Source: a virus. Taken from it: 21,057 nucleotides of DNA. The notes under the pieces were generated by a model. The model searched no databases. It saw only the letters and a program-made list of their open reading frames with translations, and was not told the origin of the DNA. The stretch is taken from IMG/VR virus record IMGVR_UViG_3300041402_000176, positions 1-21,057 of that record; one strand, 5' to 3'. Every line of letters begins with the position of its first letter. Position 1 is the stretch's first letter. Shown piece after piece: positions 450-1,370 of the stretch. The position numbers were made by a program, and so were the translations under genes.

Positions 450-975
450 GCCTCTCTCCCTCCTTGTCTGTCTCACCCGTACACTCGAAGTGCATCCCAT
501 CTGTCCTAGGGAAGTTACCACCCCAAGCAAATCCATGCCTCTCGAATATAGGGACGAGTCTTAGTACCGTACCAGACTCATGTGTGTCGGCTACGGCTTG
601 CCCAAGCTTATTATGCCTGGGATTAATATCAAAAGCGATACCATAGCTATGACGGGAGACCCTGGTATCTGAGCCACGTACCATACGAGGCACAAAGCTA
701 CCGCCCCAAAACACAATGTCTCTAACCAAGCCGTGTTCTTCAATCTCATCAAATGCATCCTTTAGCTGTTGATGGATAGCCTTGTTGCAGTACACCCTGC
801 CTGAGGACTTACCCCCATAGGTATGCTTACCTTTTAGCTGAGGGATATGTACCATACTCATGTTCTCTTGAACCCAGAACCTGTTAAGCTTAACCTCGCT
901 ACTATCATCTATGCGTATGTAAGGAAGCTTACCATATGCCTCCCTTACCTGCTCGTCACTAAGTGATAGTAACAC
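436..975 (-). CDS. M15-family zinc metallopeptidase (endolysin-like)
   Basis: A 179-aa protein matching the M15/VanY group of zinc peptidases, which includes L-alanyl-D-glutamate endolysins such as Ply500 and D,D-carboxypeptidases. The zinc and catalytic signature is complete: SRHSYGIAFDIN supplies H109 and D116, and DGMHFE supplies catalytic D159 and zinc ligand H162, with the D-x-x-H spacing seen in Ply500. Upstream blocks GGSFVPR and the aromatic GFAWGG also fit the family. The whole length is one catalytic domain with no cell-wall-binding domain and no signal peptide, so it would need a holin to reach the peptidoglycan. The start is GTG at 975, with AAGGGAT about ten bases upstream. It overlaps the preceding gene by 17 bases and the following one by 14. 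It is probably the main endolysin; whether it cuts as an endopeptidase or a carboxypeptidase cannot be told here. Confidence 0.88.
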   Translation of the reverse strand: MLLSLSDEQVREAYGKLPYIRIDDSSEVKLNRFWVQENMSMVHIPQLKGKHTYGGKSSGRVYCNKAIHQQLKDAFDEIEEHGLVRDIVFWGGSFVPRMVRGSDTRVSRHSYGIAFDINPRHNKLGQAVADTHESGTVLRLVPIFERHGFAWGGNFPRTDGMHFECTGETDKEGERHDAS

Positions 976-1255
976 GATCTCTATCCCTTAACTCTCCTAG
1001 CTTACCTTCGTTCCAGCCACTTACCTTAGAGAAGTAACCAGTGATACGAGTGATGTGATCTACATCCTTACCTTGTATCATATAGGCAGTTAGCGCACGC
1101 ATGTCATGCTCTCTAATAGCCTCAGTAGTAAAGTGAGTGACGGTATCCCATCTCTTGTTGCGTACATAGTACCCTGTCCCATGATCTTCTTTACCAAACC
1201 AGAAGGTCGTGTCTGTATCATCCCCAATAGCCTTAATGAAATCCCTAACTAGCAT
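959..1255 (-). CDS. Orphan protein with class III ribonucleotide reductase-like C-terminus
   Basis: A 98-aa protein. Its last third (about residues 67-94, RITGYFSKVSGWN then GKLGELRDR) resembles the C-terminal glycyl-radical end of anaerobic ribonucleoside-triphosphate reductase (NrdD). There a conserved R-x-x-G-Y carries the radical glycine and is followed by a WN-x-GK-x-E motif. The corresponding glycine here is G73. Residues 1-66 are not recognised and contain no NrdD catalytic barrel, so this cannot be a reductase by itself. The start at 1255 is preferred over the longer frame to 1309 because AAGGAG (1263-1268) lies 7 bases upstream of it. It sits between a Cys-rich micro-ORF and the M15 peptidase and overlaps both. 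Possible roles are a spare part for an oxygen-damaged host NrdD, by analogy with GrcA/YfiD and pyruvate formate-lyase, or a phage-specific reuse of the fold. The motif match is from memory of the family, not from a search. Confidence 0.6.
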   Translation of the reverse strand: MLVRDFIKAIGDDTDTTFWFGKEDHGTGYYVRNKRWDTVTHFTTEAIREHDMRALTAYMIQGKDVDHITRITGYFSKVSGWNEGKLGELRDRDRVTIT

Positions 1256-1370
1256 CCTGTCTCTCCTTATACCCTGTCTCGTCATCATGACACTCGCCAC
1301 AACACTCACCAGTACATGCTGGACATGTAGGAGGAGTATTCTTAGTAAGCGCCGAACCTGTAATTACCAT
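1245..1370 (-). CDS. Cys-rich 41-aa micro-protein
   Basis: A short open frame of 41 codons. It begins one base after the stop of the holin-like gene (TAATATG context) and ends by overlapping the start of the NrdD-like gene by 11 bases. The peptide has five cysteines in a tight cluster, CPACTGECCGEC (C16, C19, C23, C24, C27), followed by H28 and an acidic and basic tail. The spacing suggests a small metal-binding knuckle such as zinc. The Shine-Dalgarno is weak (GGTGG just upstream), so translation may depend on coupling to the previous gene. The snug fit between two genes, with no other explanation for this stretch, favours a real gene. No named family is recognised. A zinc ribbon precedes the radical loop in class III reductases, so the pairing with the next gene is suggestive, but this is inference. 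Confidence 0.5.
   Translation of the reverse strand: MVITGSALTKNTPPTCPACTGECCGECHDDETGYKERQDAS

Follow-up and report, generated by a model that had tools for sequence, protein, structure and literature searches.

A phage-encoded NrdD-type glycyl-radical tail protein with homologues beside tail-less class III ribonucleotide reductase genes in Omnitrophota

Stand-alone glycyl-radical domains and a 98-residue phage protein

Pyruvate formate-lyase is cleaved by oxygen at its radical glycine, and the small proteins YfiD and Y06I, the latter from phage T4, are spare parts for this enzyme (PMC8683613). According to Andorfer et al. (2021), only YfiD and Y06I have been validated in this role, and other glycyl radical enzymes may also have spare parts (PMC8683613). 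YfiD (GrcA) and Y06I are each a small stand-alone glycyl-radical domain with an extra N-terminal part, one kind of protein found in both a bacterium and a phage, and their proposed job is to rescue a glycyl radical enzyme that has lost its tail by cleavage. The phage protein described here is likened to them by its sequence: it has the same build, and its family likewise has bacterial and phage members. It differs in that its radical tail is of the type found in class III ribonucleotide reductase (NrdD) rather than the pyruvate formate-lyase type of YfiD/GrcA, and in that some of its relatives also serve as an apparent fixed second subunit. A ribonucleotide reductase (RNR) in two polypeptides is known from class II, namely NrdJa/NrdJb (as cited in PMC9669993); this enzyme, however, is B12-dependent and its division puts no protein radical on the small part. 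Among viruses, the 144-aa protein of ANMV-1 (KP703175) is also an orphan NrdD tail, annotated as anaerobic ribonucleoside triphosphate reductase, i.e., as the whole enzyme, but it retains zinc-type cysteine pairs and its N-terminus is unrelated to that of our protein.

The stretch of viral DNA that we analysed (hereafter the window) is 21,057 nucleotides long, and an earlier note, made from its letters without database searches, had pointed to an orphan NrdD-like tail at 959-1255 on the minus strand. The 98-aa ORF there starts with an ATG at 1255 and is preceded by a Shine-Dalgarno sequence, AAGGAG, at 1263-1268 of the same strand. A search with the Pfam NRDD model PF13597, which the note had asked for, matched residues 63-93 above the curated cut-off (E=8.6e-7, with 28.4 bits where the gathering cut-off is 26.2), and the NCBIfam NrdD model TIGR02487 matched the same stretch (E=8e-6), bearing out the proposal; a solved NrdD matched the stretch weakly. 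The PF13597 match was confined to columns 531-560 of 562, where the NrdD C-terminal glycyl-radical domain carries the RxTGY...WNxGK..E...R motif that the window protein also has. No pyruvate formate-lyase-type glycyl-radical family matched in Pfam or NCBIfam at E-values up to 1, and the NrdD-type models were the only glycyl-radical models in either collection to do so. Judged by these profiles, the 98-aa protein ends in a genuine class III RNR glycyl-radical tail. The note's further remark that reductase barrel and active-site cysteine domain are missing was also correct: the protein contains not a single cysteine, hence neither the finger-loop cysteine nor the cysteine pairs of the zinc ribbon, and columns 1-530, including the ten-stranded barrel, are uncovered. 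For these reasons the protein is not itself an NrdD; unlike that enzyme it lacks the ATP cone, barrel, finger loop and zinc ribbon, and it has another N-terminal domain ahead of the tail.

From the profile match, the invariant residues and an AlphaFold2 model we assign the radical tail to residues 62-95 (971-1072, minus strand), which hold the R70-I-T-G73-Y hairpin, W81-N-x-G-K, E88, R92 and a C-terminal helix. The predicted radical glycine, G73 by alignment to NrdD tails, is encoded at 1037-1039 (minus strand). Conservation of G73 and a hairpin around it were two further points on which the note's idea could have failed, and both held: G73 is invariant in 32/32 full-length relatives, together with R70, T72, N82, G84, K85, E88 and R92, and AlphaFold2 run on the 98-aa protein alone predicted strands at 68-71 and 74-77 with G73 at the turn, followed by a helix at 83-96 (middling confidence; pLDDT 75, pTM 0.51). 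Across the same 32 relatives the mean share of the commonest residue was 0.74 in residues 62-93 and 0.44 in residues 1-61. In close pairs dN/dS was ~0.09 (a phage pair) and ~0.07 (a host pair); constraint in this analysis was stronger still on the tail segment of the Omnitrophota subunits described below. The pattern fits a part that has retained its radical chemistry.

Residues 1-61 (1073-1255, minus strand) are modelled as one helix, three strands and two helices, to which Foldseek and VIA-align assigned no fold (the best rows, HicA-type with Z 5.4, were within noise). A profile of this domain built without the radical tail (see below) matches these residues, and none of 74 long NrdD-type ORFs contained the domain. 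On these comparisons it is a separate domain and no remnant of NrdD, presumed to be a docking domain.

The gene does lie beside lysis-type genes, as the note had said. Downstream on the minus strand is an M15 D-Ala-D-Ala peptidase, a probable endolysin (436-975; PF13539, E=5e-18), whose first codons, by the start as listed, overlap the tail gene's end, and then a C92/YiiX-like papain-fold protein (6-449; phrog_1128, E=6e-31). The phrog_1128 family is labelled enoyl-CoA hydratase-like, a label that looks wrong given that NCBIfam points to YaeF/YiiX enzymes. Upstream, also on the minus strand, is a 95-aa protein with a hydrophobic C-terminus (1372-1659), holin-like by position and with no significant family match; with these three neighbours, "lysis-like module" is a fair description. 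Between it and the tail gene, and overlapping the start of the latter, the ORF list has a 41-aa cysteine-rich ORF (CPACTGECCGEC; 1245-1370, minus strand) with no family match, whose last codons contain the ribosome-binding site of the tail gene. A separate zinc-peptide role for this ORF can be imagined, as the tail protein has no zinc-ribbon cysteines; nothing supports it. The viral record, a 21-kb fragment from IMG/VR, contained no other NRDD match and no NrdG-type activase that we could find. The major head protein of this phage is ~30% identical to its counterparts in Bcep22-like and rhizobial phages, and the records of its two nearest relatives (L007 and L008) start upstream of the terminase and stop shortly after the head genes, so they do not take in the lysis locus.

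Split nrdD genes in Omnitrophota

We sought the tail family in GTDB genomes by a pattern scan and then examined 35 Omnitrophota genomes. In 'bacterium SKW160' and in one Omnitrophota MAG, both of the same phylum, a tail gene comes after an NrdD gene that lacks its own tail. Ten of the 35 genomes have this arrangement, with an NrdD core that matches the profile only to column ~528-535 and then a separate tail gene, and an eleventh has a tail-less core at a contig end. The split cores retain the ATP cone, the reductase domain and the zinc ribbon, and terminate in sequences such as CPWCSASRKGVVRV, just short of the expected radical glycine. In all ten the tail gene starts 12-49 nt after the core with its own ribosome-binding site (the gene order in G058 being nrdR-nrdD-tail), and since the same arrangement recurs in ten divergent genomes a sequencing frameshift is ruled out. 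Of the 11 genomes in which NrdD is split or lacks its tail, four, which may be incomplete, gave no class I or class II RNR, a result that does no more than suggest sole dependence on the class III enzyme there. Our search of the open-access literature turned up no report of a split class III RNR or of an NrdD spare part.

A different kind of interruption was seen in other Omnitrophota nrdD genes (L087/L113 in G028:C12, and those of G048, G055, G060, G061 and G063), which have long in-frame insertions, with frames of ~690-2500 aa open and the NRDD match in pieces. In L087 the insertion resembles an intein, and more than one may be present in several of these genomes.

The Omnitrophota tail subunits are ~100 aa long, and their homology to the window protein extends along all of it, in an alignment with one single-residue gap and 35-41% identity. 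An HMM of the N-terminal domains of these subunits only, with the radical tail removed, matched window residues 1-61 with E=2.9e-7, the significant part being residues 22-55 only; the best of 5,000 shuffles scored E=0.014, and 5,035 other ORFs scored worse. The same HMM matched a second phage protein, L146 (E=8.4e-7), which is the closest viral relative (51% identity across residues 28-97 of the window protein) and whose gene immediately precedes a 600-aa ORF, by its place a possible terminase (no Pfam match); it did not match the N-terminal domain of the protein of phage L148. In a tree, the window protein, L146, L148 and all ten Omnitrophota subunits grouped together (support 98/94), apart from the type of tail protein found in delta-proteobacterial genomes and other phages; the tree has long branches, and the order within the group is not resolved. 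An HMM of the delta-proteobacterial-type N-terminal domain did not match the window protein, and the two types are thus linked by the radical tail only. The window protein accordingly has the N-terminal domain common to the operon-encoded tail subunits; its gene, however, follows the 41-aa ORF rather than a tail-less nrdD, with no core in the 21-kb record, which makes it a viral homologue and not an operon subunit itself. A portal search of the 35 Omnitrophota genomes found no prophage related to the window phage, a result that bears neither way on the host.

Relatives in other phages and beside stress genes

IMG/VR was scanned with a profile pattern from which the radical glycine had been left out; this returned 42 loci, and the glycine was retained at every one. 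At 18 of them the match lay in a short ORF (<160 codons) rather than a reductase, some of these being near-duplicates, and eight of the short ORFs form one family with a common N-terminal part and no zinc-ribbon cysteines ahead of the tail. Other viral orphan NrdD tails (L018, L021, L026, L028, L033, L034, L040 and L041) have unrelated N-termini, some with CxxC zinc-type motifs, and these differences suggest more than one origin for such tails. The orphan-tail viral records examined contained no NrdD core, and the 14 tested for class I or II RNR contained neither, many of the records in both sets being fragments; among relatives, the longer records (37-91 kb) have the tail and no core. Some phages, such as that of L010, have a full nrdD gene with a very similar tail. 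Full-length homologues of the window protein recur in unrelated phages and in bacteria. The recurrence that the note had proposed to look for was therefore found as regards the short form, and not as regards its lysis-gene neighbours: relatives sit near terminase or replication genes, and we accordingly judge the lysis location of the window gene to be incidental.

Several candidates fell away. A single-protein scan of viral contigs gave no close relatives, Vibrio phage BA6-type tblastn matches (E ~2) lay within a 554-aa gene and were noise, and the phage matches L003-L005 turned out to be full-length NrdD. G001 has a weak match to the NrdG family (E=3e-9), below the cut-off and away from the tail gene.

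In bacteria, tail genes also occur where nrdD is intact. Delta-proteobacterial MAGs have a tail gene of the same kind located away from an intact nrdD, and in two of these MAGs the chromosomal tail gene adjoins a FUR-family regulator (L074:4021-4920 and L076:3350-4159) whose best NCBIfam model is PerR, below the equivalog cut-off. The Omnitrophota genome G058 has, besides its operon, a second and nearly identical tail gene (L108:8364-8710, in G058:C82) 39 nt after hcp, which encodes hydroxylamine reductase/hybrid-cluster protein, and an Rrf2-family regulator lies upstream. This second gene contains a run of N; because its flanks, several bases and the gene order differ, it is probably a real copy and no assembly duplicate. 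Oxygen cleaves pyruvate formate-lyase at the radical glycine and nitric oxide destroys glycyl radicals, so the PerR-like and hcp neighbours (three cases, without a background rate) suggest a part in repair after oxidative or nitrosative stress. Separately, NrdD-tail matches in frames of ~52-74 codons were seen in the delta-proteobacterial phylum (G091, G128, G148, G187, G215, G230, G238 and G240) and are possibly another widespread class of orphan tail.

Possible roles of the tail protein

We consider it likely that the window gene encodes a stand-alone glycyl-radical subunit for class III RNR that is used in trans on the host's NrdD. What was observed is the homology to the Omnitrophota subunits, the split genes, the invariance of the glycine, and the lack of an NrdD core in those viral records with an orphan tail that were tested; docking, formation of the radical, catalysis, benefit and host are what we infer from them. 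The split operons supply the link between a tail protein of this kind and an enzyme that apparently needs one. The C-terminal 35 residues would fold into the radical hairpin, G73 being at the turn, and the N-terminal domain would dock the protein onto an NrdD core. Once the host's activase had placed the radical on G73, the radical loop would insert into the barrel and oxidise the cysteine of the finger loop, so that the enzyme would work without a tail on the core itself. This host core might naturally lack a tail, like the split NrdD cores of Omnitrophota, or might have lost its tail to damage by O2 or NO at the glycine, and the benefit to the phage would be a supply of dNTPs during infection under oxidative exposure. 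Counting against such a role are the late, lysis-type location of the gene, where demand for dNTPs may already be falling, the failure to find an NrdG-type activase in the viral record, the short reach of the significant N-terminal match (residues 22-55) and the middling confidence of the structure model.

That same location would suit a decoy or inhibitor, since in a late module aid to replication matters less: a mimic of the tail might tie up the host's activase, or fill the active site of NrdD, and so stop host dNTP synthesis or a competing phage, and mimicry by short phage proteins is common. A blocker needs no exact radical glycine, yet G73 is invariant along with seven other tail positions, and the closest bacterial homologues sit in the nrdD operon as the enzyme's only tail, which is the place of a subunit; we regard a decoy as unlikely. 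The note had left two options side by side, a spare part for host NrdD or a fold reused for another purpose. With its gene lying between holin-like and endolysin genes and its zinc-ribbon cysteines absent, the protein might indeed be a tail motif now with a lysis, structural or regulatory role unconnected to NrdD. In split NrdD, however, the zinc ribbon remains on the core and its absence from the window protein is thus expected, relatives are not tied to lysis genes, and the radical motif is strictly conserved in phage and host members, all of which makes a reused fold rather improbable; the full-length homologues whose genes come straight after a tail-less nrdD in Omnitrophota favour the spare-part option of the two.

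The remaining alternatives concern nrdD genes of the phage itself. As the window record is a 21-kb fragment, bacterial split NrdD exists and some phages carry nrdD, the tail might work only with a phage-encoded core on the missing part of the genome; in the split operons, though, tails directly follow the core, which the window tail does not, and the 37-91 kb records of relatives have no core for the tail to serve, and we hold a phage enzyme of this kind to be quite improbable. That the gene is a functionless, decaying piece of a former phage nrdD is conceivable given full-length phage genes with very similar tails such as that of L010, but it is scarcely credible for an ORF with its own start, a Shine-Dalgarno site and a domain that NrdD does not have. 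The recurrence of full-length homologues in unrelated phages and bacteria, and dN/dS below 0.1 in close pairs of relatives, add to this, and decay appears largely refuted by conservation across the family.

Returning to the subunit used in trans on host NrdD, a broader proposition is that class III RNR has a natural two-subunit form with the radical on a small, exchangeable protein, copies of which are carried by phages and stress operons, so that a virus supplying only this ~11-kDa part would take over or repair host dNTP synthesis; for this wider view we find the case about evenly balanced. Viruses and hosts may both use the radical tail as an exchangeable spare. Spare parts have so far been validated only for pyruvate formate-lyase, and whether they exist for other glycyl radical enzymes is a question already raised in the field (PMC8683613). 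The family described here offers candidates for NrdD; as the operons hold an enzyme that appears to depend on a separate part, the question could be put to the test with the small protein and a tail-less core. If the proposal is right, it would correct the annotation of 50-140-aa proteins as whole reductases, provide a naturally divided radical enzyme in which to study activation and insertion of the glycyl loop, and mean that phages of anaerobes have a cheap route to dNTPs.
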